Numbered from the stretch's first letter, positions 9,935-27,027 are shown. The stretch is 64,000 nt of DNA from a virus (IMGVR_UViG_3300009182_000059:1-64000); one strand, 5' to 3'. Notes: generated by a model from the letters alone, not told the origin. Made by a program: numbers and translations.

Positions 9935-9963
9935 ATTATAGGGCAAAATGGCACCTAGGTCAA
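9935..9963 (-). promoter_or_regulatory. sigma70-like promoter of the 9.9-8.6 kb operon
   Basis: TTGACC (9958-9963), 17-bp spacer and a perfect TATAAT (9935-9940). The palindrome at 9980-9997 lies 16 bp upstream of the -35. Confidence 0.85.
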
Positions 9964-9979
9964 GGACTATTTTGGTATC

Positions 9980-9997
9980 TGTTGTATCTGTACAACA
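9980..9997 (-). promoter_or_regulatory. Regulatory palindrome TGTTGT-N6-ACAACA, site a
   Basis: A perfect 6+6 bp inverted repeat with a 6-bp centre, 16 bp upstream of the -35 at 9958-9963. One of seven such sites, each beside a sigma70-like promoter. Confidence 0.7.
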
Positions 9998-9999
9998 TA

Positions 10000-10122
10000 T
10001 CATTTTGACAACGGATCCATGGGTTCAGACCCCCAAAACCCAGCAAAATCGAGGGGTTCGGGGACTCTAGGAAGGGTTATAGGAGGTTTTCTCGGGTCGG
10101 TCATAGTAGACTGTGGTACCAT
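10000..10122 (-). CDS. Possible 40-residue proline-rich peptide
   Basis: An ATG at 10122, with AGGGG seven bases upstream, opens a 40-codon frame ending just before the palindrome at 9980-9997. The product is rich in Pro and acidic or aromatic residues (TDPRKPPITLPRVPEPLDF). Composition is GC-richer than the surroundings. With no homologue recognised it could be chance. Confidence 0.3.
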   Translation of the reverse strand: MVPQSTMTDPRKPPITLPRVPEPLDFAGFWGSEPMDPLSK

Positions 10123-10267
10123 GGTTCGACCCCTAATTTCGATGTTGTTTTTTTGACACATATCAGAATGATAATTGTCAGATTAGTAAGATTCTTGGGA
10201 CTTATGCTTATCCTTGCGGGTATACAAGGTTTTCAATTTTACCTGTTTAGGCTTGAATGGGGTATCC
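10123..10267 (-). other. Non-coding gap
   Basis: No convincing gene is seen. Together with the doubtful 10000-10122 frame it separates the 56-residue protein from the next promoter. It holds a short inverted repeat, CCTTG/CAAGG (10212-10229), without a T-tract, so a terminator is doubtful. Confidence 0.4.
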
Positions 10268-10438
10268 TTACAGAACAGGATAAAGTGGTTTCGGTGTTTC
10301 TTCAATTCGTTTTGGTTCGTTTTCATTTTCATTCACCTCTATAATAACTCCGCCATATGCGGTTCGATACATCTCGGCACATTCTTTGATATAAAATAAA
10401 CTCTTTTTTCCATTATTTGATATCAGTAGGTACCTCAT
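10268..10438 (-). CDS. Small hypothetical protein
   Basis: Fifty-six residues beginning MRYLLISNNGKKSLFY, with TTAGGAG four bases before the chosen ATG. A second in-frame ATG lies immediately before it, at 10441. The C-terminal half is charged (VNENENEPKRIEETPK). Function unknown. Confidence 0.6.
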   Translation of the reverse strand: MRYLLISNNGKKSLFYIKECAEMYRTAYGGVIIEVNENENEPKRIEETPKPLYPVL

Positions 10439-10461
10439 CATGCTCCTAACGGTGTGGGGTT

Positions 10462-10489
10462 ATCATACTGTATATAGAAATTACGACAA
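10462..10489 (-). promoter_or_regulatory. Weak sigma70-like promoter candidate
   Basis: TTGTCG (10484-10489), 16-bp spacer and TATGAT (10462-10467), before the gene at 10438. The -35 is poor and lies in the end of the ATPase gene. Confidence 0.3.
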
Positions 10490-11341
10490 TACATAATCTG
10501 CCATTTCTTTCCAATCTGTATTGGCAGAGCGAATCTTAACAACGGAGATAAGTGTACGCAATGACAATTCTTTTGCCGAATCTTTTTTCTCACGCAGGAA
10601 TTCGATGGCATCAGTTTTGAAACGGATACTGGTATCTGGCATGAATTCTTTGGACTTTACAATATACTCCATGCGGGAGATAATTTCATCCGTGGTCATG
10701 CTCAAGTCAATCATAATCGAGCGTGAACGGATTGCCTGATCGATTTTAGTTTGATCCATATTTGAAATAAAGATAACACGACCTTTAAACTCAAATGAGG
10801 ATGGCAGGTCATCATTCATATTCTCGGCATTCCATGTAATGTAACGCTTTGAATAGGAATCAAGTGCTGCCTTCAATAGATTCAATGCAACAGGATCACG
10901 CAAAATGGCATCGGTGTCATCAAACACAATAACGCCATTACTGTTTTCGTATAGGGTACGATACAGACCTTTGGCAGTAGAATAACCTTTGACAACACGG
11001 AATACTTTTTTGCCTGGGACAATTACGAATTCCTCGAGGTCTGATATATCTTTGTAACCTTGAGATTCGAGCGTTTTGGTAACTGTATAGGATTTACCAA
11101 GACCACCACGACCAGTAATAATTGCAGAAGGTTGTACTTCGCCAGCAACCATCTTTACTAGTTTTTCAACAAAATCGAATCGTTTATTAATATCGTATTT
11201 TGATGGTGTAGTAGGAATTGGTGCAGCAAAGGATTGTGCTTTTTTGATTAATGCTTTCAGGTCAGACTCATGTGAGCGTTTGACCATTTTGCCATTAATA
11301 ACTGCCTGAAACTTGCCACCTACGAATTGAATTTGCGACAT
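10481..11341 (-). CDS. AAA+ ATPase, phage type
   Basis: ATG 11341 follows AGAGGAATCTAT and gives 286 residues. The Walker A motif GRGGLGKS is near 82-89, the Walker B motif VIVFDDTD near 141-148 and a sensor block VIFISNMD near 190. The N-terminal 60 residues look like a small beta domain plus linker. Such stand-alone ATPases occur in T4-like aquatic phages without an assigned partner. It has its own palindrome-linked promoter (11371-11432), as the CobS-like and CobT-like genes do, so joint expression is likely. Confidence 0.75.
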   Translation of the reverse strand: MSQIQFVGGKFQAVINGKMVKRSHESDLKALIKKAQSFAAPIPTTPSKYDINKRFDFVEKLVKMVAGEVQPSAIITGRGGLGKSYTVTKTLESQGYKDISDLEEFVIVPGKKVFRVVKGYSTAKGLYRTLYENSNGVIVFDDTDAILRDPVALNLLKAALDSYSKRYITWNAENMNDDLPSSFEFKGRVIFISNMDQTKIDQAIRSRSIMIDLSMTTDEIISRMEYIVKSKEFMPDTSIRFKTDAIEFLREKKDSAKELSLRTLISVVKIRSANTDWKEMADYVLS

Positions 11342-11370
11342 ATAGATTCCTCTCAATCAATCAATACGTT

Positions 11371-11399
11371 ATTCTAGCAAAATCCATGGTTTTGGTCAA
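11371..11399 (-). promoter_or_regulatory. sigma70-like promoter of the AAA+ ATPase gene
   Basis: TTGACC (11394-11399), 17-bp spacer and TAGAAT (11371-11376). The palindrome at 11415-11432 lies 15 bp upstream. Confidence 0.8.
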
Positions 11400-11414
11400 G
11401 CGGATATCCAGGTG

Positions 11415-11432
11415 TGTTGCGTAAATACAACA
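11415..11432 (-). promoter_or_regulatory. Regulatory palindrome, site b
   Basis: TGTTGT-N6-GCAACA, one mismatch from the perfect form, 15 bp upstream of the -35. It is nested in a longer imperfect hairpin, TCCAGG...CCTGGA (11407-11439), which could also stop transcription from the gene upstream, although there is no T-tract. Confidence 0.65.
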
Positions 11433-11463
11433 CCCTGGATTGTTTCATTTATAGAAACAATTT

Positions 11464-11727
11464 TTAACGTATAGTCAAATTAGTAACATAATTCATGTAA
11501 TTTTGATAACTGTTAGCATCCATGAAATATTTCAGTGTTACAGTAAGGGCTTCGACCAAATCCTCATCGATACCCAAATCATACCCACCTTCATCTCTGT
11601 TTGGAACGATGGCAACCTCTAATGCGAACTGCAATTCGGAAACCACAATCGAATCAATTTGATCCATTGTCAGTTTAACCATCTGTTCTGGCACTTTCAT
11701 TCGGTTTTGAATTTCACGCTTTCTCAT
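11464..11727 (-). CDS. Hypothetical protein
   Basis: An 87-residue, mostly helical acidic protein starting MRKREIQNRMKVPEQ. ATG 11727 overlaps the stop of the gene upstream (TGATG). It is last in the operon from 12358. Not recognised. Confidence 0.6.
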   Translation of the reverse strand: MRKREIQNRMKVPEQMVKLTMDQIDSIVVSELQFALEVAIVPNRDEGGYDLGIDEDLVEALTVTLKYFMDANSYQNYMNYVTNLTIR

Positions 11728-12131
11728 CAATTGTCCTCATATTGTGGATCAGTTTCGATTACCACATGACCAAACTGAATTGTGCCATGCCAACCACCAT
11801 CTTCTCTGCCACCACCAGTAACAAAATCAATTTTGAATTCCATGATGGCACCTAATTGCAACAGGTCATCGTATTTGTTGGCACGAATATCATCTACCAA
11901 GATACAACCAATGGAACCGGAATCAACTGAATATGAATATCCATAATAGTCATGATATACACCATCACCCCACTTTGTTCCATATGTGGCAAATTTGCGA
12001 CCATCTTTGAATTGAAATTCACCATCTAGGCATTTGTTGTTCTTGATGGTAAGAGAACAAAATTCTTCCCATTCTCCATCTGTCATCACATAAGCCAAAT
12101 CACCCACATAGTATTTTCCTGCTGGCATCAT
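11727..12131 (-). CDS. Conserved phage protein, function unknown
   Basis: The 134 residues begin MMPAGKYYVGDLAYVM and contain VDSGSIGCI, with HVVIET near the end. This beta-rich family is found in many unrelated phages and bacteria without a known role. The gly-rich GGGREDGGWHG loop may be a binding site. Co-transcribed with its neighbours. Confidence 0.7.
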   Translation of the reverse strand: MMPAGKYYVGDLAYVMTDGEWEEFCSLTIKNNKCLDGEFQFKDGRKFATYGTKWGDGVYHDYYGYSYSVDSGSIGCILVDDIRANKYDDLLQLGAIMEFKIDFVTGGGREDGGWHGTIQFGHVVIETDPQYEDN

Positions 12132-12136
12132 AATAA

Positions 12137-12325
12137 TTAACCTCTATCAATTGGTAGAATAGTGCAGATATATTGGTTATACCCGTATTCCTTTATCAAC
12201 GTACCACCATCGGCACGGCACTCTTTGTTCATTTGATAGGTGTGCCATTCACCGTATATGGTAACGCATACAAGAAACCAAACAGTGGCGAGAAACACCC
12301 AAGAAAAAAAATCATGTATTTTCAT
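12137..12325 (-). CDS. Small membrane protein
   Basis: Start chosen at ATG 12325, preceded by GGAAAATTTT, rather than the ATG at 12337, which lacks a ribosome site. The 62 residues have one membrane helix (SWVFLATVWFLVCVTIY) and a periplasmic tail with two cysteines. First gene after the promoter at 12358. Confidence 0.6.
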   Translation of the reverse strand: MKIHDFFSWVFLATVWFLVCVTIYGEWHTYQMNKECRADGGTLIKEYGYNQYICTILPIDRG

Positions 12326-12357
12326 AAAATTTTCCATTAATTTACACTACAGACATA

Positions 12358-12386
12358 ATGATAACAGAATATGGTGAGTATGTCAA
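12358..12386 (-). promoter_or_regulatory. sigma70-like promoter
   Basis: TTGACA (12381-12386), 17-bp spacer and TATCAT (12358-12363). The palindrome at 12393-12410 lies 6 bp upstream. It drives the genes from 12325 down to 11464. Confidence 0.8.
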
Positions 12387-12392
12387 TCCCAT

Positions 12393-12410
12393 TGTTGTGC
12401 CAATACAACA
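12393..12410 (-). promoter_or_regulatory. Regulatory palindrome, site c
   Basis: Perfect TGTTGT-N6-ACAACA, 6 bp upstream of the -35 of the promoter at 12358-12386. Confidence 0.7.
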
Positions 12411-12411
12411 C

Positions 12412-12654
12412 CTACTTATTATTGCCATCTACACAATAACCACCCTTAAACTGGTAGACATTGGAATCCACTCGTACTTGTTGGTAGATTTCATTGTTTA
12501 CGCATTTAAACGGGTCTTTGTAGTTTAATGTAATGAGGTACGCACCATAACCAACACCTGCTAGTATCATAATAATAGGAATATACTTCAGGAACTTGAC
12601 AACTCCCGGCATCATTTCCAATAATTTTGGTAATAGGTTTAGCAGGTCTTTCAT
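12412..12654 (-). CDS. Small membrane-anchored protein
   Basis: Eighty residues: an amphipathic N-terminus, one membrane helix (YIPIIMILAGVGYGAYLI) and a C-terminal domain with two cysteines (FKCVNN and GGYCVDG). The layout resembles the protein at 6661-6912. Such small inner-membrane proteins are often exclusion or immunity factors, which is only a possibility here. Confidence 0.6.
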   Translation of the reverse strand: MKDLLNLLPKLLEMMPGVVKFLKYIPIIMILAGVGYGAYLITLNYKDPFKCVNNEIYQQVRVDSNVYQFKGGYCVDGNNK

Positions 12655-12663
12655 TTGTTTTCC

Positions 12664-12807
12664 TTAAAATACAACAGACATTGCCAATGCACCGTTTAAT
12701 GCAGACAAAAACAAATAGGTATGCGCCCAGAACATACGATCTTCTGCCCATGCAACATCAGACATAACCCAGAACATAATTGCCAGTATTACGGTGACAA
12801 TAATCAT
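12664..12807 (-). CDS. Small membrane protein
   Basis: Forty-seven residues beginning MIIVTVILAIMFWVMSDV, with hydrophobic segments at both ends and a short polar loop (AEDRMFWAH). The ATG overlaps the stop of the gene upstream (ATGA). Function unknown. Confidence 0.6.
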   Translation of the reverse strand: MIIVTVILAIMFWVMSDVAWAEDRMFWAHTYLFLSALNGALAMSVVF

Positions 12808-12986
12808 TTCATTACCACTGCCACACAACGATACCGTTCGGATGAGATACCCATCAAATTTGCAGCATCAACGCACCGTTCATGATTAGCAAACGTGGTG
12901 AGATAACGCCAATCATATGCTTTGGTTAATGTTGAATTGTGACCAGACATAGCAACTACAGTATAAAGTATTAATGCATAATTCAT
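12804..12986 (-). CDS. Small hypothetical protein with a signal-like N-terminus
   Basis: Sixty residues; the N-terminus MNYALILYTVVAMSG is hydrophobic and could be an export signal. Two cysteines lie in the mature part. It shares one base with the gene upstream and overlaps the next ATG. Not recognised. Confidence 0.55.
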   Translation of the reverse strand: MNYALILYTVVAMSGHNSTLTKAYDWRYLTTFANHERCVDAANLMGISSERYRCVAVVMK

Positions 12987-13204
12987 TATATTACTCCAAA
13001 ATGGTTTTTAATTACTTCTTCAACAAGAACTTTACCATCAAAAGAGGAATCCAATCCAGATTTCTCTAAGGTGTGTTCTCTGGCCAGTCTCGCACATTCT
13101 TTGACAATGATATCAGCAAGCATTACCATTCTTGAGTGACAATCACTTGAAATATGTTTATGTAGACCATGGTTTATCATCAAGGCTTGTATATTTTCGT
13201 TCAT
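12986..13204 (-). CDS. MNERIQ-family small protein
   Basis: Seventy-two residues starting MNENIQALMINHG, with a central VKECARLA segment, ending VIKNHFGVI. The same frame (MNxRIQ start, K/RECA helix, HFGV end) is found at 14328-14561 and 20098-20304, and partly at 14558-14908. It is therefore a local paralogue family. Function unknown. Confidence 0.65.
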   Translation of the reverse strand: MNENIQALMINHGLHKHISSDCHSRMVMLADIIVKECARLAREHTLEKSGLDSSFDGKVLVEEVIKNHFGVI

Positions 13205-13377
13205 TTTGTTGGTCTCAGATCAAAGATTATCAAAGCACCAAGAGCAATCCAAAATACACCGAAAAAATTATTGCCTATAACAATATCTGTAACACCACTC
13301 AATATGTTGATGCCACCAATAAAACATCCGATAGGTGTTCTATAGGTAGTTAACCAATTAATTATTGTATCTTTCAT
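13201..13377 (-). CDS. Small membrane protein
   Basis: ATG 13377 follows TTGGAGTC and overlaps the stop of the tiny frame at 13377-13415. The 58 residues have two hydrophobic stretches (GCFIGGINILSGVTDIVIG and FFGVFWIALGALIIF). Function unknown. Confidence 0.55.
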   Translation of the reverse strand: MKDTIINWLTTYRTPIGCFIGGINILSGVTDIVIGNNFFGVFWIALGALIIFDLRPTK

Positions 13378-13415
13378 TATTTGACTCCAATACGTTGTTG
13401 AATTCGTTCGTTCAT
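13377..13415 (-). pseudogene. Twelve-codon relic of the MNERIQ family
   Basis: A good ribosome site (GAGGAG) precedes an ATG opening MNERIQQRIGVK and a stop. The first six residues equal the start, and GVK equals the end, of the family member at 20098-20304. The middle is missing, which looks like an internal deletion that kept the frame. It still couples by TAATG to the gene at 13377, so it may survive as a translation leader. Confidence 0.5.
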
Positions 13416-13417
13416 TT

Positions 13418-13786
13418 TTACTCCTCTTCATTGCCAATCATTTCTAGCAAAGTCTCGACCTCATTGATGCCACAACGACCGACATCACTTTGGTATGGAT
13501 AGACTTCCCAGTACGGTTCATCTGTTTTCTCCCAGTAACCCAATGAATTAGTTTTCTCCCAGTAACCCAATGAGTTACGGCGGTCCAGATAGATAGACTT
13601 TTCTTTACCTGATGGTAACTTGACACGAAAGCGCACCACAGCATCACCAAATGGTGGTATGATTTGTACTAACCAGTCAGCAGGAAAACGAATAGCAGGT
13701 ATGGCAGAGATTTCTTCTCTCCATTTCTGTTCTTGTTCGATTTCATATCGTTTGTGTAATAGTTTTGGTTCGTAAGTTTCGTTCAT
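13418..13786 (-). CDS. Hypothetical protein with a duplicated nine-residue block
   Basis: ATG 13786 lies right behind the stop of the gene upstream and gives 122 residues. The middle part has WLVQIIPPFGDAVVRFRV. Near the C-terminus NSLGYWEKT occurs twice in tandem because of a 27-bp duplication (13524-13577). Function unknown. Confidence 0.55.
   Translation of the reverse strand: MNETYEPKLLHKRYEIEQEQKWREEISAIPAIRFPADWLVQIIPPFGDAVVRFRVKLPSGKEKSIYLDRRNSLGYWEKTNSLGYWEKTDEPYWEVYPYQSDVGRCGINEVETLLEMIGNEEE
13524..13577. repeat. Tandem 27-bp duplication
   Basis: Two 27-bp copies (13524-13550 and 13551-13577) differ at one base and stay in frame inside the 13418-13786 gene. This indicates a recent slippage or duplication event. 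Confidence 0.9.
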
Positions 13787-13787
13787 A

Positions 13788-14315
13788 TTACTCGCACAAT
13801 TCTTTAAATGAATACACTCGGTATTTGTTCCATATTTTCCATGCTTTCGTGACTTTGCCATGTCTGTATTTGCGGTCATTGACTTTACTGAAAAATTCAA
13901 AAGATTTAAAAGTTATGTTTAATCCTCCTGTACCACCATATAAAGAATAAGGAACTCTAAAATAGTATAAAGTCTCAACATCAGGATATCCTTCAGCATA
14001 AGGATTGGCAATCATAATTCTAAGAATGCCTTTCTTATTCTTTAAATTTTTTATGACAACTTCCGATCTTGCTGTAACAATTGCTTTCTTGGCATCGGAT
14101 CCGTCTTTGAAGTCTTGTCCGTCTTTGTTTGATCGTTCTAGTTTACCCACTTTAGAAATAGCATATTCTAGGAGTGATTCGACTGCAATGACTCCATGCT
14201 TTGCGGCATCAATATAGAAATTTGTTTTTTGTTTAGAAAACTTCAGATTCTTGCATAGTTCTTTAATAATGAGAATATCACCGTTGATTCCATTCTCTGA
14301 TAAGGTTGCTGCCAT
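13788..14315 (-). CDS. Conserved phage protein, function unknown
   Basis: A 175-residue basic protein. It has a DFKDGSDAKKAIV segment near residues 68-80 and a beta-rich part (GILRIMIANPYAEGYPD). The acidic-x-Lys spacing could fit a nuclease core, but I cannot establish one. It ends right before the next ATG and belongs to the 15.4-12.7 kb run. Confidence 0.6.
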   Translation of the reverse strand: MAATLSENGINGDILIIKELCKNLKFSKQKTNFYIDAAKHGVIAVESLLEYAISKVGKLERSNKDGQDFKDGSDAKKAIVTARSEVVIKNLKNKKGILRIMIANPYAEGYPDVETLYYFRVPYSLYGGTGGLNITFKSFEFFSKVNDRKYRHGKVTKAWKIWNKYRVYSFKELCE

Positions 14316-14327
14316 GATTTCTCCGTT

Positions 14328-14561
14328 TTATGGATTGTTTCCGAAGTAAGTGCTTCTTTTTCTTAATTGACCATCAATGGTGTCAACCCCAAAATGACTC
14401 AAAATGCATTCGTATGGGTCATGTTCTTCCCTGAGTGCAATGGTTGCACATTCCCGAACAATCAACTCCGCAAATCGTTGATAACTAACTTGCACACCAT
14501 CTTCAAGTCTACCAGTTTCAGTCATTGCCTGAATCATCAATTCTTTAATTCGTGGGTTCAT
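14328..14561 (-). CDS. MNERIQ-family small protein
   Basis: Seventy-seven residues beginning MNPRIKELMIQAM, with RFAELIVRECATIA in the middle and ILSHFGV, followed by a 16-residue extension. It is a paralogue of 12986-13204 and 20098-20304. Function unknown. Its ATG overlaps the end of the gene upstream. Confidence 0.65.
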   Translation of the reverse strand: MNPRIKELMIQAMTETGRLEDGVQVSYQRFAELIVRECATIALREEHDPYECILSHFGVDTIDGQLRKRSTYFGNNP

Positions 14562-14908
14562 AGTGGTTTTGCATAACCTTTCTTGTGTATCGTTCCGTCA
14601 ATGTAATCGACATAGCACCATGGTTGAGTCTTTGCCCATTCAACTACGGCATGTATAGGACCTGTTCGTGCAGATAAACCAGTGGTTCTCTTGTACATAT
14701 CAGCCAGTTGGTCATTGGTCAATGGTCGTGATATGCATAAAACGTAGTCATTATCAGCATATTCTTTAATGATTAACTCAGCGAATTTTTCTATATCTTC
14801 TTCTTCGATTGTATAGCTGTATTTAACCTGAGGTGGGTTACTCATCAAATTATGTGTGTGCTTATGCTTTCTAATTGTTTTAAAGAGTTGTTGTATTCGT
14901 TTATCCAT
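14558..14908 (-). CDS. Divergent MNERIQ-family protein
   Basis: ATG 14908 overlaps the upstream stop (TAATG) and gives 116 residues. It opens MDKRIQQLFKTIRKH and carries EKFAELIIKEYAD, as in the smaller paralogues. The C-terminal 55 residues (VEWAKTQPWCYVDYIDGT) are new. It may be a fusion or extended member. Function unknown. Confidence 0.6.
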   Translation of the reverse strand: MDKRIQQLFKTIRKHKHTHNLMSNPPQVKYSYTIEEEDIEKFAELIIKEYADNDYVLCISRPLTNDQLADMYKRTTGLSARTGPIHAVVEWAKTQPWCYVDYIDGTIHKKGYAKPL

Positions 14909-15096
14909 TACCATCCACCTTGACTATGTTGCATTAGATAGGTATATACGCTTTCGTGATCTTTGATCCATTGACCAGCAGGTGTCATTCCGTTGAATGC
15001 TTTGTTTGGACTACTCCACCATGTATCAGCAAGTGCATCACCTACCATAGCAATAACCAATGCTACGGATCGTTGTTTCATGATATGTTCAGTCAT
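14908..15096 (-). CDS. Possible MbcA/ParS/Xre antitoxin-type toxin-binding domain
   Basis: The C-terminal 35 of 62 residues (WWSSPNKAFNGMTPAGQW, then VYTYLM) fit the pattern W-x3-PN-x2-L/F-x-G-x-TP-x4 of the DUF2384/MbcA-ParS domain. That domain is normally the C-terminus of antitoxins. There is no RES-type toxin next to it, and the usual DNA-binding part is missing. It could be a free antitoxin against a host toxin, which is inference. Confidence 0.4.
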   Translation of the reverse strand: MTEHIMKQRSVALVIAMVGDALADTWWSSPNKAFNGMTPAGQWIKDHESVYTYLMQHSQGGW

Positions 15097-15224
15097 TTAA
15101 ACTTTCCTATCAGTTTTGTTAGCATTGCCATAGCATGTTCGTGCATCTTTTCAGAATGATGTAAACGATTCTCTAGATATGCAATATACTCCTGTAATGC
15201 TTGTATTCGGTCTTGGTCAGTCAT
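15093..15224 (-). CDS. Small coiled-coil protein
   Basis: Forty-three residues beginning MTDQDRIQALQEYIAY. The product is one long amphipathic helix. The ATG shares a base with the stop of the gene before it, and its stop overlaps the next ATG. Function unknown. Confidence 0.6.
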   Translation of the reverse strand: MTDQDRIQALQEYIAYLENRLHHSEKMHEHAMAMLTKLIGKFK

Positions 15225-15448
15225 CAATCAAACCTATCATAAGTCTTTTCAAAGATTGCTCTATCACAGATATAGAGTTCACCATCAATACCACGCATAA
15301 GATAATCACCTGCTTTACCTTGCTTATAGTCACCTTCTAGTGTATTCACTCGAAATGGTTCATCAATTTGCATACAATGGATAATGATAGGACGCTTCAT
15401 ACAACTCGTCATACCGTCAATTTTCTCAAAGGTTTCGTATGTTTTCAT
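15224..15448 (-). CDS. Conserved phage protein, PI-HCMQ/GDYL type
   Basis: The 74 residues contain PIIIHCMQI, LEGDYKQGKAGDYLM and GELYICDRAIFEKTY. I recognise this small beta-rich protein family as common in phages of many kinds, with no known function. Confidence 0.6.
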   Translation of the reverse strand: MKTYETFEKIDGMTSCMKRPIIIHCMQIDEPFRVNTLEGDYKQGKAGDYLMRGIDGELYICDRAIFEKTYDRFD

Positions 15449-15497
15449 AATAGTTTCAGATTGGTGTAGAAAAGTGTCAAATTGTGTGAAAAAGTGT

Positions 15498-15511
15498 CGC
15501 AGGATGCTGCG
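15498..15511 (-). terminator. Weak terminator-like hairpin
   Basis: On the minus strand CGCAG-CATC-CTGCG is followed by ACAC and five T, between the 15589 gene and the 15448 gene. Confidence 0.35.
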
Positions 15512-15539
15512 CTACGGTTCGATGGGTTTGGGTCTTAGT

Positions 15540-15588: not shown

Positions 15589-15906
15589 TTATACGGTTTC
15601 CGATTGTTTTTCTTCAACTGGTGCCGTTTGATCGGTCTTAGAGGGTTTTGATGACCCTGTAAAAAACCCATTGGAATCAAAGTCATTTGGGTTAACTAAT
15701 TGGTATCCAGTAACCTTACGACCATCTTTTAATACACGAATAACTGCCTTATCATACTTACGGGCATCGTAGATATATGTGGACAATCTATACATCAATG
15801 CAGAGGTTTTGATATCACTAGCAAAGGATGCTTTGATCTCATCAACGGTAACAGCATTACCAGACTTCAATACTACTAGAATTTTGTTATGGACTTTTTG
15901 TTTCAT
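15589..15906 (-). CDS. Possible winged-helix DNA-binding protein
   Basis: The 105 residues start MKQKVHNKILVVLKSGNAVT. The helix-turn-helix-like VTVDEIKASFASDIKTSAL and a following beta hairpin (AVIRVLKDGRKVTGYQLV) suggest a winged helix. The C-terminal 25 residues are polar and disordered. It has its own promoter (15953-15981), so it could be a regulator. Confidence 0.55.
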   Translation of the reverse strand: MKQKVHNKILVVLKSGNAVTVDEIKASFASDIKTSALMYRLSTYIYDARKYDKAVIRVLKDGRKVTGYQLVNPNDFDSNGFFTGSSKPSKTDQTAPVEEKQSETV

Positions 15907-15952: not shown

Positions 15953-15981
15953 ATTCTATCAGAAAGGTTGCTCTGAGTCAA
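15953..15981 (-). promoter_or_regulatory. sigma70-like promoter inside the end of the CobS-like gene
   Basis: TTGACT (15976-15981), 17-bp spacer and TAGAAT (15953-15958), driving the putative DNA-binding protein. Confidence 0.6.
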
Positions 15982-17134
15982 TAGGTGAACTGGCAGAAGT
16001 CACGGTGTTTGCCGATTGCACTGTCTCATCCACTTTACTGTACAAGTCTAATAGACTCAATTTGGTAATCTCATCGAATCGATTAACGCACAATTGGATT
16101 GCTTTCATCTTATCATTAAAGATAGTGTAGGCTTTTGCAATGTGTACTAGGCGACGGGTACTGATAATTTCATCAATAGCACCTTCCTCATAGGTCTTAC
16201 GGACAATATCTGCCCACTTGACTAGGTTATCAACGAATGCCTTATCATTAATCAATGGGGTAAGAATCTTTGTTTCAGTTCTTACGTCTGGATACTCTTG
16301 TTCTACTGTAATAGGAAAGCGTTCAAGGAAGGCATCATCGAGGATTTGCGATAGATACTTACCTTCATCGGAACCACGACCTTTTGTATTGGCAGTGGCA
16401 ACGACATTGAATCCATTGGTTGGGTATACTACTTCACCAGACTTTTTGTTATAGTATGGTTTGCCTTCGAGAATACCTTGTAGGCACATGAGTTTATTGG
16501 ATCCACGATCCACTTCGTCAATCAGTAGCACAGCGCCACGTTTCATGGCAAGAATCACAGGACCATCACGGTTAATCACATTACCATTAACCAGTGTAGG
16601 ACCACCAAGTAAATCAGACTCATCGGTTTCCACAGAGATATTGACACGGATACACTCACGTTGGAGTTCAGCGCATACCTGTTCAATCATTAAGGTTTTG
16701 CCATTACCTGATAGACCAGTAACGAATATAGGATAGAATTGCTTAGAGGATAAAATGTTTTTCATATCCTTAAAGAATCCAAACGGTACATAATCAGGAT
16801 ACTTGCTGGGAATAGCAGGTTCAGATTCATCAATCAATTTAGGTTGACGGAATGAAAGGACTTGTTCCACTACTGCAACCTCAGGTTCAGGTGCTTTACG
16901 AATACTCAAGGACTCAGCAGGGTTAGGACCTAGACTAGGTTTAGCACCACCAATGCGAGGTAACTTGTACTCACCACGACCCACACGGTACTGGGAACGT
17001 GAAACAAACCAGAACGGATAAGGAACACCTGTTTCATCGACTACCCGTTGTACACCAGCACGGGTTAAGGTTGCACCTTCGGAGAATATGCTTTCGGCAG
17101 CCTTCACAAAAGCAATTGCATTACTATTCATCAT
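15959..17134 (-). CDS. cobS-like: CobS-like AAA+ ATPase (MoxR/CbbQ group)
   Basis: The 391 residues contain an N-terminal helical domain of about 60 residues, a linker and an AAA+ domain. Walker A is GLSGNGKT at 140-147 and Walker B is AVLLIDEVDR at 201-210. The block VVATANTKG serves as sensor, and FLERFP follows. CobS in bacteria is the ATPase of the aerobic cobaltochelatase CobNST. T4-like aquatic phages often carry it without CobN. The CobT-like von Willebrand protein at 23031 is the expected partner, so a MoxR/VWA-type remodelling pair is more likely than cobalamin synthesis. Confidence 0.85.
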   Translation of the reverse strand: MMNSNAIAFVKAAESIFSEGATLTRAGVQRVVDETGVPYPFWFVSRSQYRVGRGEYKLPRIGGAKPSLGPNPAESLSIRKAPEPEVAVVEQVLSFRQPKLIDESEPAIPSKYPDYVPFGFFKDMKNILSSKQFYPIFVTGLSGNGKTLMIEQVCAELQRECIRVNISVETDESDLLGGPTLVNGNVINRDGPVILAMKRGAVLLIDEVDRGSNKLMCLQGILEGKPYYNKKSGEVVYPTNGFNVVATANTKGRGSDEGKYLSQILDDAFLERFPITVEQEYPDVRTETKILTPLINDKAFVDNLVKWADIVRKTYEEGAIDEIISTRRLVHIAKAYTIFNDKMKAIQLCVNRFDEITKLSLLDLYSKVDETVQSANTVTSASSPIDSEQPF

Positions 17135-17361
17135 TTTGCCTCATTATCATCAAATATTGCAAAGGAAAGCGAATCAGCAAGATTCACGGCATCGGTAGGA
17201 CAGTGCTTTACTAACAGGTTGGCAGTAAATTCTACACCCAGGATGCGAATCGATTCCAATAGGTCATCGATAGCCTTCTCCTGCATTAGAATTTCCTCTT
17301 GCCATGCAGCGTATGATCCATCGTCAATGGCATCATAATAATCCTGCATTGCTTTACTCAT
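17131..17361 (-). CDS. Hypothetical acidic helical protein
   Basis: ATG 17361 is seven bases from GGAG; another ATG lies at 17364. About 76 residues, largely helical (AWQEEILMQEKAIDDLLES). It overlaps both neighbours by a few bases and is the second gene of the operon leading to the CobS-like ATPase. Confidence 0.55.
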   Translation of the reverse strand: MSKAMQDYYDAIDDGSYAAWQEEILMQEKAIDDLLESIRILGVEFTANLLVKHCPTDAVNLADSLSFAIFDDNEAK

Positions 17362-17503
17362 CATAATTCTCCATCATGTATTCTGCAATAAGGTTTACGT
17401 CATTATACGAAACACCGTAGTAATCCGCAATTTCACGGAATGACATTTTGCCTGCTTCGATAGCAGCCTCAATGTCAATTATCAAATCCTTGAATTTACT
17501 CAT
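17354..17503 (-). CDS. Helix-turn-helix microprotein
   Basis: Forty-nine residues (AAGGAATAA before the ATG). MSFREIADYYGVSYNDVNLI at about 20-39 reads as a helix-turn-helix. It resembles the 43-residue protein at 21005-21136. It is the first gene behind the palindrome promoter at 17532-17584, so autoregulation is possible but unproven. Confidence 0.6.
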   Translation of the reverse strand: MSKFKDLIIDIEAAIEAGKMSFREIADYYGVSYNDVNLIAEYMMENYDE

Positions 17504-17531: not shown

Positions 17532-17560
17532 AGTATAACAGGTTTTGGTACCTTTGTCAA
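17532..17560 (-). promoter_or_regulatory. sigma70-like promoter of the cobS-like operon
   Basis: TTGACA (17555-17560), 17-bp spacer and TATACT (17532-17537). The palindrome at 17567-17584 lies 6 bp upstream. Confidence 0.85.
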
Positions 17561-17566: not shown

Positions 17567-17584
17567 TGTTGTATAAAAACAACA
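17567..17584 (-). promoter_or_regulatory. Regulatory palindrome, site d
   Basis: Perfect TGTTGT-N6-ACAACA, 6 bp upstream of the -35 of the cobS-like operon promoter. Confidence 0.75.
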
Positions 17585-19584: not shown

Positions 19585-19612
19585 ATTATACTCGGATCGG
19601 CAGAAAATGCAA
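19585..19612 (-). promoter_or_regulatory. sigma70-like promoter
   Basis: TTGCAT (19607-19612), 16-bp spacer and TATAAT (19585-19590), with palindrome site g 15 bp upstream. Confidence 0.7.
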
Positions 19613-19627: not shown

Positions 19628-19645
19628 TGTTGCGTAAAAACAACG
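19628..19645 (-). promoter_or_regulatory. Regulatory palindrome, site g
   Basis: CGTTGT-N6-GCAACA, an imperfect member of the family, 15 bp upstream of the -35 at 19607-19612. A related dyad, GTTGTC-N5-GACAAC, lies at 19691-19707. Confidence 0.55.
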
Positions 19646-20097: not shown

Positions 20098-20304
20098 TTA
20101 TTTGACTCCGAAGTGTTCTTTGATAGCACCACCAACATCAAACCATTCATCATCTATGCATTCATGTGCAACTTTAGCACATTCTTTTATAATCAACTCA
20201 GCAAATTTTTCTTTATCAAAGACGGGCTTACCAGTATCTGTGCCAGTCCCATCAAACTTCAACGTTGTAGCCTGTTCGGCAAGTTCTTGGATTCGTTCGT
20301 TCAT
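20098..20304 (-). CDS. MNERIQ-family small protein
   Basis: ATG 20304 follows GGAGGTTAT. The 68 residues begin MNERIQELAEQATT, contain EKFAELIIKECAKVA and end IKEHFGVK. This is the clearest member of a family with copies at 12986, 14328 and 14558 and a relic at 13377. Function unknown. Confidence 0.7.
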   Translation of the reverse strand: MNERIQELAEQATTLKFDGTGTDTGKPVFDKEKFAELIIKECAKVAHECIDDEWFDVGGAIKEHFGVK

Positions 20305-20471
20305 ATAACCTCCATTACTATACCGAGTAGTTTTTTCATCATCCATCGTTGAAACTTGTTTGGTTTCTTCTTAGAATAGAATTGTATGTGTGTATTAGAA
20401 TTCTCACCAAAACTTATTTTTAAATTTGGTTCAGGAAGAGAGCGAAATACAACATTATAATCATTATTCAT
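20301..20471 (-). CDS. Small basic hypothetical protein
   Basis: ATG 20471 overlaps the stop of the gene upstream and gives 56 residues, ending with a Lys-rich stretch (KKKPNKFQRWMMKKLLG). It is coupled by ATGA to the MNERIQ gene. Function unknown. Confidence 0.55.
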   Translation of the reverse strand: MNNDYNVVFRSLPEPNLKISFGENSNTHIQFYSKKKPNKFQRWMMKKLLGIVMEVI

Positions 20472-21136: not shown

Positions 21137-21138
21137 TA

Positions 21139-21528: not shown

Positions 21529-21728
21529 GATATCACCGTTAGATCCATATCAAAGGTAAAATGTATACTTTGACCAATACCATTACTGTTACTAACTCGC
21601 AACTGAAAGTTATCGATTTCTTTAAAGTTAGCAATCACCTCTGCCATATGTTCAATCTGCTTTCGACTGAGATTGACAATCAATGCATCTGGTGCACCAT
21701 AGGTTTCGACTTTAAATTCTTTTTTCAT
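21525..21728 (-). CDS. Small hypothetical protein
   Basis: A 67-residue mixed alpha/beta protein (MKKEFKVETYGAPDALIVN...). The stop overlaps the next ATG. Not recognised. Confidence 0.55.
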   Translation of the reverse strand: MKKEFKVETYGAPDALIVNLSRKQIEHMAEVIANFKEIDNFQLRVSNSNGIGQSIHFTFDMDLTVIS

Positions 21729-21736
21729 TGCAATTC

Positions 21737-22312
21737 CTAATTAACAATACCGTCTATGCGCCTTGCACAGTCTTTTGCGGATCCTACACATGGTGAATCA
21801 CCAACTCGTTCGTTACCATACTGAATTGGTATACCATCAATTTCTTCTCTGCGTTTACCAGGAATCTCTTCCGGATCAACATGTTTGTTTCTGGTTGACT
21901 TTGGTGGCGGTGGGGGTGCTTGTACAGCAACAGGAACAATCTCTGTAGGATACACTGTAACAGGTTGTCCGGGTGCTACAGGCATCTGCGGTATATCTTT
22001 GACATAGTAGATATGTTCTACTGGTGGTAAGCATACCATATTGCCAGTATAGGCAACTTGACACCCACGTGGTTGTAATACTTTTTTTACCACTCGACCA
22101 TCATCCATTCGATAGTATTCCTCATAGACTGTATCTCGACCATCTGGGAAGAATATTTGTTGCGGCAATGGTGAGTATACACCAGAATTGGATGCGTATT
22201 GAACTTGAACATTTTTATCACCAAGTATCATTGACAAGAGTCCTACACCAGCAGAGTGTGCCGATGTGGATGCGAGTAAAACAAGACTTGCCATTACAAT
22301 ATGCTTTTTCAT
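21737..22312 (-). CDS. Secreted proline-rich protein
   Basis: ATG 22312 overlaps the upstream stop. The 191 residues begin with a signal peptide (KKHIVMASLVLLASTSAHS). The mature part is Pro/Val-rich (VPVAVQAPPPPPKS) with three or four cysteines, two of them in the C-terminal half. Probably periplasmic; function unknown. Confidence 0.6.
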   Translation of the reverse strand: MKKHIVMASLVLLASTSAHSAGVGLLSMILGDKNVQVQYASNSGVYSPLPQQIFFPDGRDTVYEEYYRMDDGRVVKKVLQPRGCQVAYTGNMVCLPPVEHIYYVKDIPQMPVAPGQPVTVYPTEIVPVAVQAPPPPPKSTRNKHVDPEEIPGKRREEIDGIPIQYGNERVGDSPCVGSAKDCARRIDGIVN

Positions 22313-22617
22313 TTTATATTCCATTTAGGATGTGTCCAATGATGCTCAAGATATTCAGATTCGGTAACTTCACGATATACATGTTCTACGTTTAGAGATT
22401 TTAAAAAGTCTAACCAAGACTTCAATCTATAACCACGGGATGTCATGTATATTGTTTTTTCACCATACTTAGATTCTAACAGAAAATAGGCATTGTTGTC
22501 AACTTTTTTCGGTTTTTCTTTTGGTACTTCTGGTGTTTGTTGTTCCAATACAACATCTTCGGTAAAGTCCTCAATATTTACCGGTTTATCTGGTACTGGA
22601 GTCTTTTTCCTACTCAT
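22309..22617 (-). CDS. Hypothetical protein with disordered N-terminus
   Basis: The first 40 of 102 residues are Pro/Glu/Lys-rich (TPEVPKEKPKKVDN). A compact alpha/beta part follows (YFLLESKYGEKTIYMTSRG). Not recognised. Confidence 0.55.
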   Translation of the reverse strand: MSRKKTPVPDKPVNIEDFTEDVVLEQQTPEVPKEKPKKVDNNAYFLLESKYGEKTIYMTSRGYRLKSWLDFLKSLNVEHVYREVTESEYLEHHWTHPKWNIK

Positions 22618-22789
22618 GGAACTCCTTTAGAGTAGTATTACATGATCCAGTATCTCCACCTATAAAAAAAGTATTGGTGTTCACTTCTTTACAATATTTT
22701 TTCTCATCAGAAACTTTCACCAAATAGTCATCATTTGAGAGTAAACACCATCCAATAAAAAAAACTGCCATAATCACAAGTTCACGCAT
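22610..22789 (-). CDS. Small exported or membrane-anchored protein
   Basis: Fifty-nine residues. The N-terminus (RELVIMAVFFIGWCLL) is a membrane anchor or signal. The rest carries two cysteines (KKYCKE and GSCNTT) that could pair outside the cytoplasm. It resembles the two-cysteine proteins at 6661 and 12412. Confidence 0.55.
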   Translation of the reverse strand: MRELVIMAVFFIGWCLLSNDDYLVKVSDEKKYCKEVNTNTFFIGGDTGSCNTTLKEFHE

Positions 22790-22790
22790 T

Positions 22791-23018
22791 TTATTCTCTT
22801 AATAGTTGACTTGTTCCACTAGTTGAGAGAACAAAATCTTCCGCAAATTGGTCTGCCTCACCTTCAGTAGCAAATAATGCCGTAGCAAGAATAGTACCAA
22901 AATTATTATTAACCACCACTTTGTAAGGCATTACATTACCAAGTGTTATTTTATATACAGTGGCAACTTTACTTTCACCGTAGAATTTTGACATTTCTTT
23001 TAGAATTTCTGTAGCCAT
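22791..23018 (-). CDS. Small hypothetical protein
   Basis: Seventy-five residues, alpha/beta (VYKITLGNVMPYKVVVN and a final helix). It lies between the CobT-like gene and the small membrane protein gene. Not recognised. Confidence 0.55.
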   Translation of the reverse strand: MATEILKEMSKFYGESKVATVYKITLGNVMPYKVVVNNNFGTILATALFATEGEADQFAEDFVLSTSGTSQLLRE

Positions 23019-23030
23019 ACGTTTGCTCCT

Positions 23031-25175
23031 TTATGTAATTAGATTGACGAATCTATTTAACACGGCACGACTTTGCAAACGACCTTTATTGTAATTCTTA
23101 AATGCAGTAACAAGTCCACGGGTTGTATTCGATTTTACTTCGAATTCTTCATCCTCATCAAGATTTTCTAGTTGGTCACGCCAAGATACACGTTTTGTAC
23201 GCAACCAATAGTATTCATCAAAACCAGCAGAGGTAACAACAATTGATTTTTCTTTTGTGAATTTGGAACGCAATTCATCACGATTCATTACTTCACTGTT
23301 TGGTACTCTTGACCATGCACTCGCAAATTCTTTTGATGACAACAAATAGAAACCAATCAGATTTGCACCAGTACGTTGTTTTAGCAAACTCAACAAACTA
23401 GGCGTTACTGACCAATTTGTTCTGCTACTATTATCATGGGCAAGTTGAGCACCAGTCTTTGGATCACGGAATACTAATCGAGACTTTTTACCGAAACGTC
23501 TATCACTAACACTTTGTGTAGATTTTCTTCCATTCTCATCAACTTCAACAATTTCATTTAGGTTATGACCTTCACCATCTGTCAAGAATACAGCATTGAC
23601 AATCTGCAATTTATTCTTTTCTTTGAATTTAGGAATAAGTGTAAATGCAGATACAATTGCCTCATTCAATGGTGTAGAGGATAATCCCATGTAACTAGGC
23701 AAGTAACGCCATGCTAGTAGGTATTGTGCCATGCGACTAAACTCGGCATTATTCATACGATTAGAAAACAAATTCAATAGACTGAATGATCCTGCTTTGA
23801 TATGCAGATCACCAGGTTTTGATCGTTCTTTGAATGCATCTAATCCATGATTCCATTTTCTATTATCTACATCCCAATAATCAGAACTAAATGCATACAC
23901 TTCAAATGGAATATTCACTTTGCGGCAGAATAATGCAATACTAATCAATTGCTTGATTGTACTTGTCAAATGGTCAGTCATACTGCCAGACCAATCGAGG
24001 TACATGATTAGGCCGTGTGATTTACCATTAGGCACGACAGAAATTTTCTTAAACAAGTCTTCCGAGAATTGATATTGATAAATGCGGTTCATGTTCAATT
24101 CGCCAGTTTTGGCAACTGATGCACGTTTCAACTGATCGGCATTTTTCTTCAATTCAAATTCTTTTGCAAGATAACCAACAACCTTATTTGAGTCTTTGCG
24201 GTAATGTTGGAACATTTCAATACCTTGTTCACTTGGTGCACCAGCATCACCAAAGATACGATTCAATAGATAACGGTAGTCAACAATAAATTCTTCACCA
24301 ACAACAGGAATATTGGCATACACGTTTTCAACATCATTGTTAGCAAAAAGTTCTTTCTCTTTTTCACGGAATGCTTCATCAGTGAAAGATTTTAAAGATT
24401 CTTCAATTTTCTGTTCTGGAGTTTTTTCTTCAATAGATCCATCTGATGATTCATCACCAAATTCATCATCAAACTGGTCAACGGAATTATCGAATTCATT
24501 ATCCTCATCAGAATCTTGAAATTCTTTTGGTAAAGAATCATCGAATTCCTTATCATCAGAATCCTCATATTCATTATCCTCATCAGAATCTTGGTCTTTT
24601 TGTTTTTGCTTTTCTTCGGCCTGCTGTTTCATTTTGGCCTGAATACGTTTTGCAATATCAACAATTTGTTCAAAAGTTTCAGCATTGGTCAATTCATCAA
24701 CAAAACCAATTTCATCTTTTTCAAACTTGATATTTGATACTGTACCTTGTTTGAAGTACATATTAATACGGTCAACAAGGTTCATCGAATTCATATCTAC
24801 ACCGCGGGTACGGAAAAAATCTTTATCGATTAATTCTTTGTAACCTTTAAAGAAACCGTGTTTCAAACCAGGATATTTGCGCTTGATTAATTTCTCAATG
24901 CGGGCATCTTCACACACATTAAGAATTGTTTTATTTACTTTGATATCACCAACGATAGCATGATGCCATCCATCTTCTGGTGTGAATAGTGCATGACCGA
25001 CCTCATGACCAAATAAAAGGTCATAAAGATCAGGCGAGATATTTTTATCTAATTCAGGAATAACTAATTGACGGGTTTTTGTGTTAAAGTATGCCGTAGG
25101 AACATTTTTTTGTTCTACGAAAATATTTTCGGTCGCCATCAATTTGGCAAGTTGTGATTTTGAATCGATTAGCAT
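23031..25175 (-). CDS. cobT-like: CobT-like von Willebrand A protein with HExxH metalloprotease-like site
   Basis: The 714 residues have an N-terminal part with HEVGH at 57-61 and ARIEKL at 91-96, as in zinc-dependent CobT/peptidase-like proteins. A strongly acidic region (about 195-248) follows, and then a von Willebrand A domain with the metal-ion site DWSGS at 394-398. In cobaltochelatase, CobT pairs with CobS. Here the CobS-like ATPase lies 6 kb further on, under the same palindromic promoter type. The C-terminal part carries FLTDGEGHNL. A CobS/CobT-type remodelling machine acting on an unknown target is the likely role. Confidence 0.85.
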   Translation of the reverse strand: MLIDSKSQLAKLMATENIFVEQKNVPTAYFNTKTRQLVIPELDKNISPDLYDLLFGHEVGHALFTPEDGWHHAIVGDIKVNKTILNVCEDARIEKLIKRKYPGLKHGFFKGYKELIDKDFFRTRGVDMNSMNLVDRINMYFKQGTVSNIKFEKDEIGFVDELTNAETFEQIVDIAKRIQAKMKQQAEEKQKQKDQDSDEDNEYEDSDDKEFDDSLPKEFQDSDEDNEFDNSVDQFDDEFGDESSDGSIEEKTPEQKIEESLKSFTDEAFREKEKELFANNDVENVYANIPVVGEEFIVDYRYLLNRIFGDAGAPSEQGIEMFQHYRKDSNKVVGYLAKEFELKKNADQLKRASVAKTGELNMNRIYQYQFSEDLFKKISVVPNGKSHGLIMYLDWSGSMTDHLTSTIKQLISIALFCRKVNIPFEVYAFSSDYWDVDNRKWNHGLDAFKERSKPGDLHIKAGSFSLLNLFSNRMNNAEFSRMAQYLLAWRYLPSYMGLSSTPLNEAIVSAFTLIPKFKEKNKLQIVNAVFLTDGEGHNLNEIVEVDENGRKSTQSVSDRRFGKKSRLVFRDPKTGAQLAHDNSSRTNWSVTPSLLSLLKQRTGANLIGFYLLSSKEFASAWSRVPNSEVMNRDELRSKFTKEKSIVVTSAGFDEYYWLRTKRVSWRDQLENLDEDEEFEVKSNTTRGLVTAFKNYNKGRLQSRAVLNRFVNLIT

Positions 25176-25205
25176 GATTTCGCCTAAAATTAATCAAGAA
25201 CACAT

Positions 25206-25234
25206 ATTATCGCATAAAGCCAACAATATGTCAA
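25206..25234 (-). promoter_or_regulatory. sigma70-like promoter of the cobT-like gene
   Basis: TTGACA (25229-25234) overlaps the stop of the gene upstream; 17-bp spacer and GATAAT (25206-25211). Palindrome site e lies 15 bp upstream. Confidence 0.85.
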
Positions 25235-25443
25235 TCCTTAACAGGAATGTGTTGTATTTCCACAACACCTGATTTTCTACTAAGATTTGTTAGCAAAATA
25301 GAATTATTCTCTTTTGTTGCAAAATCAATAACATCATCAGTTTGCCATCCTAGTTCTGCCATCAATTCATCTGGTATTGGTAGTATCAATTCCTCCGAAC
25401 CATCATCCGCAGGAAGTAAAGTTACCGTATATGATTTAAGCAT
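25231..25443 (-). CDS. AbrB/MazE-like small protein
   Basis: Seventy residues. ELILPIPDELMAELGW followed by TDDVIDFATKENNSILL fits the swapped-hairpin AbrB/SpoVT/MazE fold, used by transcription regulators and antitoxins. No MazF-type toxin is adjacent. Its 3' end holds palindrome site e and the -35 of the cobT-like promoter. A DNA-binding role is inference. Confidence 0.6.
   Translation of the reverse strand: MLKSYTVTLLPADDGSEELILPIPDELMAELGWQTDDVIDFATKENNSILLTNLSRKSGVVEIQHIPVKD
25250..25267 (-). promoter_or_regulatory. Regulatory palindrome, site e (inside a coding region)
   Basis: Perfect TGTTGT-N6-ACAACA in the last codons of the AbrB-like gene, 15 bp upstream of the -35 of the cobT-like promoter. 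Confidence 0.75.
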
Positions 25444-25588
25444 AGTATTCTTTTAGTTTTTGGTATTCCGATTGTTCTTCTTTCCATTTTCGTAAAACTA
25501 CCCAACTAAACAAAACACGCTCAAGTTCGGATAATGCAGTACCACAATTTTCGTGGATATCTTGGTTATTTGTATTATTTGTATTCAT
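25436..25588 (-). CDS. Small hypothetical protein
   Basis: Fifty residues beginning MNTNNTNNQDIHEN. The rest is one long helix (LERVLFSWVVLRKWKEEQSE). The stop overlaps the AbrB-like start. Function unknown. Confidence 0.55.
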   Translation of the reverse strand: MNTNNTNNQDIHENCGTALSELERVLFSWVVLRKWKEEQSEYQKLKEYYA

Positions 25589-25597
25589 GATATATTC

Positions 25598-25765
25598 TTA
25601 GTTATAATAGTTTCCACTATTAGTTATGAGACAGCCTTTTTTCTTTGCATTACCTAAAATCTCAACTGACGATATAAAGTCCTTGAGTTCTTCTGGAGAC
25701 ATCAATTCGATTAATTCTCCTAATTCTTCAAATTCATCTAGTTGTTCATCTGTATATTCAATCAT
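25598..25765 (-). CDS. Small acidic helical protein
   Basis: Fifty-five residues beginning MIEYTDEQLDEFEELGELIE, acidic and helical, with a GGAAGTGAATT ribosome site. It overlaps the end of the methyltransferase gene. Function unknown. Confidence 0.55.
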   Translation of the reverse strand: MIEYTDEQLDEFEELGELIELMSPEELKDFISSVEILGNAKKKGCLITNSGNYYN

Positions 25766-26409
25766 AATTCACTTCCTTCATCATTAATGGTGGATAACCT
25801 ACTTTGGGATAATTCAAACACTTCTTTTACTATTTCTGCACCGGCATACTTCTTTTTTGAATTTATTGCTGCAATTGCGGTAGAACCTGAACCCATAAAC
25901 GGGTCAAATATAATACCATCTTCACTTGGACAATATACTTCAATAAATTGTTTTATTAGTTCGGGTGGATAATTATCCTTATAATTCTCTAACGGTTCAA
26001 TTTCATAAAAGAATGCATCAGGTATCGATTGTTCACCTTTAAAACTACTTGCATTCTTTTTGAATGTTTGAATGAATGAATAGTTGTATCGATATAGGTT
26101 TGCCTTGTATGACCTCACCCATACTCTTTGTGACTTTAACACCCAACCACTTTTTTCCATTGCATTGCAGAAAATATTGTGTTTGCGAATAACTGTTCCG
26201 TTTGCCTTTCGGTCTCGGTTGATTATTGTAACAACACCATTCTTAGGTGCAAACAATGAAATTCGACTAACTAGGAATCGATAATATTCCTCGATGCCTG
26301 ATGGTGTTGTTGTGTAGCCAATTTCATCCAAATCAGGAGGTGAAGTTATGATGTAATCATATTCTAGACCACGTTTTAATGTGTCTAGGCAATCTTCATT
26401 GTATATCAT
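25762..26409 (-). CDS. DNA methyltransferase, N4/N6 (beta-type order)
   Basis: The 215 residues show motif IV TSPPD near 23-27 and motif I DPFMGSGST near 168-176. This is the beta-class order of N6-adenine/N4-cytosine DNA methyltransferases. The residue after TSPP is Asp instead of the usual Tyr/Phe/Trp, so activity or base preference may differ. There is no restriction partner, which points to anti-restriction or self-modification. A second, unrelated methyltransferase lies at 59042. Confidence 0.8.
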   Translation of the reverse strand: MIYNEDCLDTLKRGLEYDYIITSPPDLDEIGYTTTPSGIEEYYRFLVSRISLFAPKNGVVTIINRDRKANGTVIRKHNIFCNAMEKSGWVLKSQRVWVRSYKANLYRYNYSFIQTFKKNASSFKGEQSIPDAFFYEIEPLENYKDNYPPELIKQFIEVYCPSEDGIIFDPFMGSGSTAIAAINSKKKYAGAEIVKEVFELSQSRLSTINDEGSEL

Positions 26410-26594
26410 TTTGATTTATTTTGAGTTTTAGATGGTGGTTTAAAACCATATTTTTCAAAGGTTTTTGTAATGTCTGTTTGTGCAGCAGGAATATATCTTC
26501 CTGGTTTCCAGTTTAATATACTCAATTCATCGCATTCACCATAATTAACTAGTTCTCTTTTTGAGACTATTTTTCTCATTGTGCTTAATTCCAT
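26406..26594 (-). CDS. Small hypothetical protein
   Basis: ATG 26594 shares a base with the upstream stop (TAATG) and has GAGG before it. An internal ATG at 26579 is the alternative. The 62 residues are basic (KYGFKPPSKTQNKSK at the end). Function unknown. Confidence 0.55.
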   Translation of the reverse strand: MELSTMRKIVSKRELVNYGECDELSILNWKPGRYIPAAQTDITKTFEKYGFKPPSKTQNKSK

Positions 26595-26944
26595 TATCGC
26601 CTCATCTTTGCAATATCTTGAGCCTCTTCGGCAGAAAACACAGGCACAGCATTGGATTTATGTAAAGTGCCTATACCTAACATCTTGTCACCAGTATAAA
26701 CATTTCGCTTTGGTGCTACCGCTGCTCCCATGTTATCGGGATTAAGACTTGGATATTTGGGAGTTTCTCTTCCTCGAGGAATTTCTAATTTGTATTTTTT
26801 CATGGGAGCAAATGTCGTTTTGCGTTTGGCACTTTTTGTGTCAATCGTTTCATATTTTGCGCACCATGCAGCATACTCATCTCTTTCCGTTTTGGATTTG
26901 AGTTTGGGTTTAACTTTAGATTTGGTATTTGTGTAAATTATCAT
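26594..26944 (-). CDS. Conserved basic phage protein, function unknown
   Basis: A 116-residue Lys-rich protein with KVKPKLKSKTERDEYAAWCA near the start and short Pro-containing segments (PRGRETPKYPSLNPDNMG). The pattern recalls a family in T4-like aquatic phages without a known role. It is the first gene after promoter 26976. Confidence 0.6.
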   Translation of the reverse strand: MIIYTNTKSKVKPKLKSKTERDEYAAWCAKYETIDTKSAKRKTTFAPMKKYKLEIPRGRETPKYPSLNPDNMGAAVAPKRNVYTGDKMLGIGTLHKSNAVPVFSAEEAQDIAKMRR

Positions 26945-26975
26945 AATAGAAACAAATGTTTGTTACAGAACTTCT

Positions 26976-27004
26976 ATTATGACAGGATCACACTCACTTG
27001 TCAA
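26976..27004 (-). promoter_or_regulatory. sigma70-like promoter
   Basis: TTGACA (26999-27004), 17-bp spacer and CATAAT (26976-26981), with palindrome site f 5 bp upstream. It drives genes 26944-25231, including the methyltransferase and the AbrB-like protein. Confidence 0.8.
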
Positions 27005-27009
27005 TCATG

Positions 27010-27027
27010 AGTTGTTTTAATACAACA
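27010..27027 (-). promoter_or_regulatory. Regulatory palindrome, site f
   Basis: TGTTGT-N6-ACAACT, one mismatch from perfect, 5 bp upstream of the -35 of the promoter at 26976-27004. Confidence 0.65.

Follow-up and report, generated by a model that had tools for sequence, protein, structure and literature searches.

P2 Ogr/Delta sites are centred near -55. The late-promoter sites of P2 Ogr, P4 Delta and 186 B have the core TGT-N12-ACA (PMC3931495), which is contained in TGTTGT-N6-ACAACA, the palindrome analysed here. Both systems show a phage regulon and a similar distance of the site above the promoter. In the Ralstonia P2-like phage phiRSY1, TGTTGT-N13-ACAACA precedes the late genes, and the late promoter regions contain no sigma70-type promoter (PMC5694545). 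The Ogr/Delta sites serve late genes without a -35 element, whereas the palindrome described here precedes early-region genes with a sigma70 -35. A Pfam search found the Ogr_Delta C4 zinc-finger domain (PF04606) in none of 29 records including this one, some of them incomplete, and no convincing small CX2C...CX4C protein is encoded in the window (the whole stretch of 64,000 bases that was analysed). Membership in the Ogr/Delta regulon is not supported: the site core is present, but neither of the other defining traits was seen, with no zinc-finger gene in the records searched and a -35 retained at the promoters. A literature search on the palindrome returned nothing specific to it. The preliminary description of this DNA had listed no named phage regulator with such a site, a statement to be qualified by the similar half-site of P2 Ogr/Delta.

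Class I activation by CRP takes place from a site at -61.5, with phasing at about 10.5 bp (PMC6301791). The arrangement in the window is similar in that a dyad lies above an intact -35 at phased positions one helical turn apart, and the distal class seen here comes close to the placement of CRP at -60.5 of a consensus promoter. The half-sites differ (TGTGA in CRP, TGTTGY here), and here one dominant position lies a turn nearer, near -50. The window copies match neither of the CRP/FNR arrangements TGTGA-N6-TCACA and TTGAT-N4-ATCAA. The match to class I geometry is a mechanistic likeness and not membership. The middle promoters of T4, which use a MotA box with AsiA, likewise form a set marked by one extra element in a T4-like phage. 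The MotA box, at -30, replaces the -35, whereas the promoters described here retain their -35 and have the extra element further upstream. Identifiable middle promoters are reported to be lacking in marine T4-like phages (Melnitz, cyanophages) (PMC9004378).

The palindrome and its promoters in the window

The window, a fragment of a T4-like genome, comprises 64,000 bases of an IMG/VR virus record that is 67,958 bases long. The encoded DnaB-like helicase shares 63-64% identity with those of marine T4-like phages, and UvsX, primase and ribonucleotide reductase are also present. Nearly all evident genes are on the minus strand. A megablast search with the region found no match among 50,697 phages.

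The window contains five exact copies of TGTTGT-N6-ACAACA, against a mean of 0.0175 and a maximum of 1 in 400 dinucleotide shuffles. The relaxed consensus is TGTTGY-N6-RCAACA, and TGTTG/CAACA can be read in both arms of the window copies. The site is a sparse tag, with seven copies in the entire 67,958-base record at up to one mismatch. Each exact or one-mismatch copy in the window precedes a coding-strand sigma70-like promoter (Table 1). A promoter scoring at least 10 lies within 45 bp of all seven copies with 0-1 mismatches in the record, for which the chance is roughly 1e-11. Between 9000 and 28500, the palindrome is present at all 6 minus-strand promoter-like sites that match 11 of 12 consensus bases, and the -35 is near-consensus at 7 of the 8 window sites.

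The seven sites, their -10 coordinates and the two spacing classes given in the preliminary description were reproduced exactly, and the promoters at 6939, 28892 and 37136, said to be free of the palindrome, are indeed without it. The exact copy at 22538 was absent from that description. It is the least certain copy in the window because its promoter sits in a coding frame, 35 bp off.

Table 1 Palindromes, promoters and associated genes in the window (palindrome gaps are counted to the -35; operons are predicted)
Feature	Position	Strand	Details
Promoter TTGACC-17-TATAAT	9935..9963	-	first gene 9609-9902
Exact palindrome TGTTGTATCTGTACAACA	9980..9997	.	16 bp before -35
Promoter TTGACC-17-TAGAAT	11371..11399	-	AAA+ ATPase gene 10481-11341 (phrog_1250)
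One-mismatch palindrome (TGTTGC variant, in line with TGTTGY-N6-RCAACA)	11415..11432	.	15 bp before -35
Promoter TTGACA-17-TATCAT	12358..12386	-	small gene 12137-12337
Exact palindrome	12393..12410	.	6 bp before -35
Winged-helix protein, 105 aa	15589-15906	-	best candidate regulator (putative)
Palindrome sequence TGTTGTATTGGCACAACA			proposed target of the 105-aa protein 15589-15906
Promoter TTGACA-17-TATACT	17532..17560	-	predicted cobS operon
49-aa HTH-like microprotein	17354-17503	-	first of the first two genes, predicted operon at 17532
Gene	17131-17364	-	second of the first two genes, predicted operon at 17532
CobS-like gene	15959-17134	-	further gene, predicted operon at 17532
Winged-helix gene	15589-15906	-	further gene, predicted operon at 17532
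Exact palindrome	17567..17584	.	6 bp before -35
Promoter TTGCAT-16-TATAAT	19585..19612	-	
Degenerate palindrome TGTTGCGTAAAAACAACG, 2 mismatches	19628..19645	.	15 bp before -35
Promoter-like TTGACA-18-TAGAAT	22473..22502	-	within ORF 22309-22617
Exact palindrome	22538..22555	.	in ORF 22309-22617; 35 bp before -35
Promoter TTGACA-17-GATAAT	25206..25234	-	CobT-like gene 23031-25175
Exact palindrome	25250..25267	.	15 bp before -35
N6/N4 DNA methyltransferase	25762-26409	-	last in predicted operon of promoter 26976
Promoter TTGACA-17-CATAAT	26976..27004	-	predicted operon 26594-26944, 26406-26594, 25762-26409
Palindrome, 1 mismatch (outer base)	27010..27027	.	5 bp before -35

The family of the first gene under the promoter at 26976 (26594-26944) is found behind a site in 5 of the 5 relatives that have it. 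Its product, of 116 aa, has the conserved tail YTGDKM.GIGT.HKSNAVPVF...EA..I..MRR. The window also encodes repeated small proteins of the type MNERIKELA...KFAELIV.ECA...HFGV (14328-14561, 20098-20346 and 12986-13204); 13 copies were grouped across 5 phage records.

Spacing in protein-picked loci and in relatives

Loci selected by motif and promoter are biased by construction, and loci were therefore fetched with a protein profile instead. The profile of the winged-helix family (window 15589-15906) yielded 80 viral loci, 630 kb in all. They contain 60 exact sites, compared to 0-1 for five control palindromes, and 55 of the 60 are promoter-linked. Removal of near copies leaves 29 distinct promoter-linked sites, each on the same strand as the winged-helix gene. 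Their gaps are 4-6 bp (n=10) or 14-17 bp (n=17), with single cases of 10 and 25, and the distance to the -10 in these loci has modes at 28 and 37-38 bp. Two of the 80 loci (the L531/L520 group and L559) overlap with the earlier material through common records or close kin, so the test is motif-independent, yet not wholly clade-independent. The protein-picked loci constitute the strongest evidence, and the case for two helical positions draws chiefly on them.

The promoter link extends to 16 whole or partial records: a promoter (score at least 10) lies within 45 bp of 44 of their 53 exact copies. For five control palindromes taken together, 1 of about 40 copies is near a promoter. The finding thus withstood the refuting condition set in the preliminary description, a palindrome equally common and randomly spaced away from promoters. 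In near-complete relatives the promoter-linked fraction of exact sites is 8/8 (G027), 5/5 (G050) and 7/8 (G055). Gaps are mainly 5-6 in G027 (172 kb), mostly 14-17 in G055 (84.5 kb), and 3-6 and 15 in G050. The gap classes of 5-6 and 15-16 bp from the preliminary description thus recur in loci chosen without the motif, but a third position, 35, exists, and a relative may use mainly one of the two.

Promoter-linked sites number zero in the comparators W01, W02, W06, W08 and G087. The marine Kyanoviridae Melnitz, P-SSM7, S-CAM1 and AG-345-L05 contain one-mismatch matches at chance level only, as do the reservoir cyanophage S-SRM01 and phage C48C1. Many viral contigs show the arrangement, and most of these seem, judging by contig names, to come from freshwater metagenomes.

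In two contigs (G017 at 6571 and G007 at 59899), the site lies 40 bp before the -10 of a promoter with no recognisable -35, at the same spacing in both. Retention of the site without a -35 is a hint of activation. In two others (G040:6588 and G044:13744), perfect 12-bp arms, CCTGCCTGTTGT..ACAACAGGCAGG, abut the -35 and are far longer than the arms of other sites.

Candidate regulator and probable mode of action

We favour the reading, with a probability of about 0.55, that the palindrome serves as operator for a dimeric regulator of dispersed early-region promoters in a freshwater T4-like clade; the phage's own winged-helix protein is a less certain candidate for that regulator. TGTTGY-N6-RCAACA lies on one DNA face, its centre near -50 where the gap is 4-8 and near -60 where it is 14-17, and occasionally at least one turn further up. 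The sigma70 promoter just below has a good -35, and its -10 is often extended. By analogy with class I systems, the bound dimer could touch the alpha CTD or sigma region 4 of RNA polymerase and raise promoter use, and the marked genes would be switched on together. Judged from the sequence arrangement, class I-like action from one helix face is the best reading and activation is likely, although promoters with near-consensus -35 and -10 elements should need little of it. As the putative regulator gene belongs to the predicted cobS operon, which the 17567 site precedes, the circuit would be self-regulating.

Many small winged-helix proteins are repressors. The winged-helix gene sits in its own regulon and the promoters look strong unaided, as would suit an operator through which a phage repressor closes the early genes later in infection. 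The sites, however, lie above the -35, do not overlap the core promoter and keep the helical phase, and the promoter pair described above retains the site without a -35. We consider repression improbable.

Relatives of the winged-helix protein occur in 369 viral stretches. The family has no direct match in Pfam or PHROG, and tblastn did not find the protein in 50,697 phage records. Six motif-bearing T4-like genomes were compared using the 149 gene families common to at least four of them. Of the 149, the winged-helix family alone follows a promoter-linked site on the same strand, at no more than 2.2 kb, in 6/6 genomes, and it is absent from all six comparators. Exact sites are present in 12 of 12 large T4-like records with the protein and in 1 of 8 without it (Fisher p 1e-4, uncorrected for descent and habitat). 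The association of the gene with sites is partly carried by its neighbour cobS. Six of 19 records with the protein have no exact site, all six being fragments below 70 kb, while the 96 kb fragment G072 has two promoter-linked sites without the protein.

The AlphaFold2 model of the protein is a winged helix (pLDDT 76, pTM 0.62). Its fold likeness to Fur, PadR and YodB is weak, and the best match to a solved structure has an E value of 0.02. Among the proteins put forward in the preliminary description, the winged-helix protein gained support. It ranks first among the single candidates, although its role is less likely than not and only slightly more probable than that of a host factor. The others are not conserved with the site and were rejected: the HTH microproteins at 17354 and 21005 are rarely conserved, and the AbrB-like protein at 25231 is patchy and also present in the motif-less P-SSM7.

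A profile-profile comparison loosely links the family to HTH_39 (PF14090; E 1.6e-4, probability 50%), a fold carried by most large motif phages. HTH_39 as the sole regulator was rejected, as Stenotrophomonas phage DLP6 and Pelagibacter phage HTVC008M have an HTH_39-like protein and no sites. It is possible, though doubtful, that a new group of small HTH_39-related phage winged-helix activators drives a self-regulated early/middle regulon from two helical positions, with kin reading the same palindrome in unrelated phages.

The winged-helix protein is absent from the unrelated site-rich phages G030 (8-9 sites) and the jumbo phages G019 and G029. The same palindrome with similar spacing in unrelated aquatic phages, which have no single regulator gene in common, would also fit a site of consensus strength for a host transcription factor, hijacked by phages to win RNA polymerase right after entry. 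Immediate-early promoters cannot await a phage-made protein, and Isc-type proteins in several such phages suggest related proteobacterial hosts. A scan of 85,000 species genomes for the strict palindrome with a consensus promoter gave 3 matches, at least one of which, in a lake MAG where 4.3 kb contain three sites, is probably a misbinned phage contig. This speaks against a host factor, but weakly, because activator-dependent host promoters rarely have consensus -35 and -10 elements. We regard a host factor as an unlikely but plausible source of the pattern.

If the operator reading is correct, the palindrome would define a strictly phased regulon conserved across many uncultured freshwater phages, recognisable from sequence and accompanied by one candidate protein. 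A promoter grammar for annotating such phages would follow, and the natural series of promoters with the same site one turn apart would provide material for studies of activation geometry.

A look-alike element in other contigs

A related element, TGTTGTA-[A/G]AAA-TACAACA, precedes sigma70 promoters in other viral contigs (for example L273, L274 and L187; G022:55229-62213). It is strongly oriented, with AGAAAT in 36 cases vs ATTTCT in 2, and its gaps are near 9, 20, 29 and 34. With inner bases that can pair with each other and, in some copies, a T run behind them, these may be terminators or RNA hairpins, or they may be sites of a second, oriented regulator. The look-alike should not count toward the regulon of the window. 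The group takes in G022/G024 and part of the jumbo-phage sites, which weakens the argument for one factor in all phages; G030 looks mixed.

The orientation and T runs of the look-alike raise the question of whether the window sites could themselves be RNA hairpins at which the upstream transcript is terminated or processed. At the window sites, self-complementarity is mostly lacking in the six inner bases and no T run follows, and terminators would not be expected to keep helical phasing. With no stem plus T run and a single weak terminator-like call among the eight sites, the terminator reading is largely refuted for the window, and a hairpin of either kind is very improbable.

Several of the freshwater phages in this set encode IscU-like and IscA-like iron-sulphur assembly proteins (G005:73302-73983, G007:46168-46882, G030:46495 and 72263, and G024:50531-51234).
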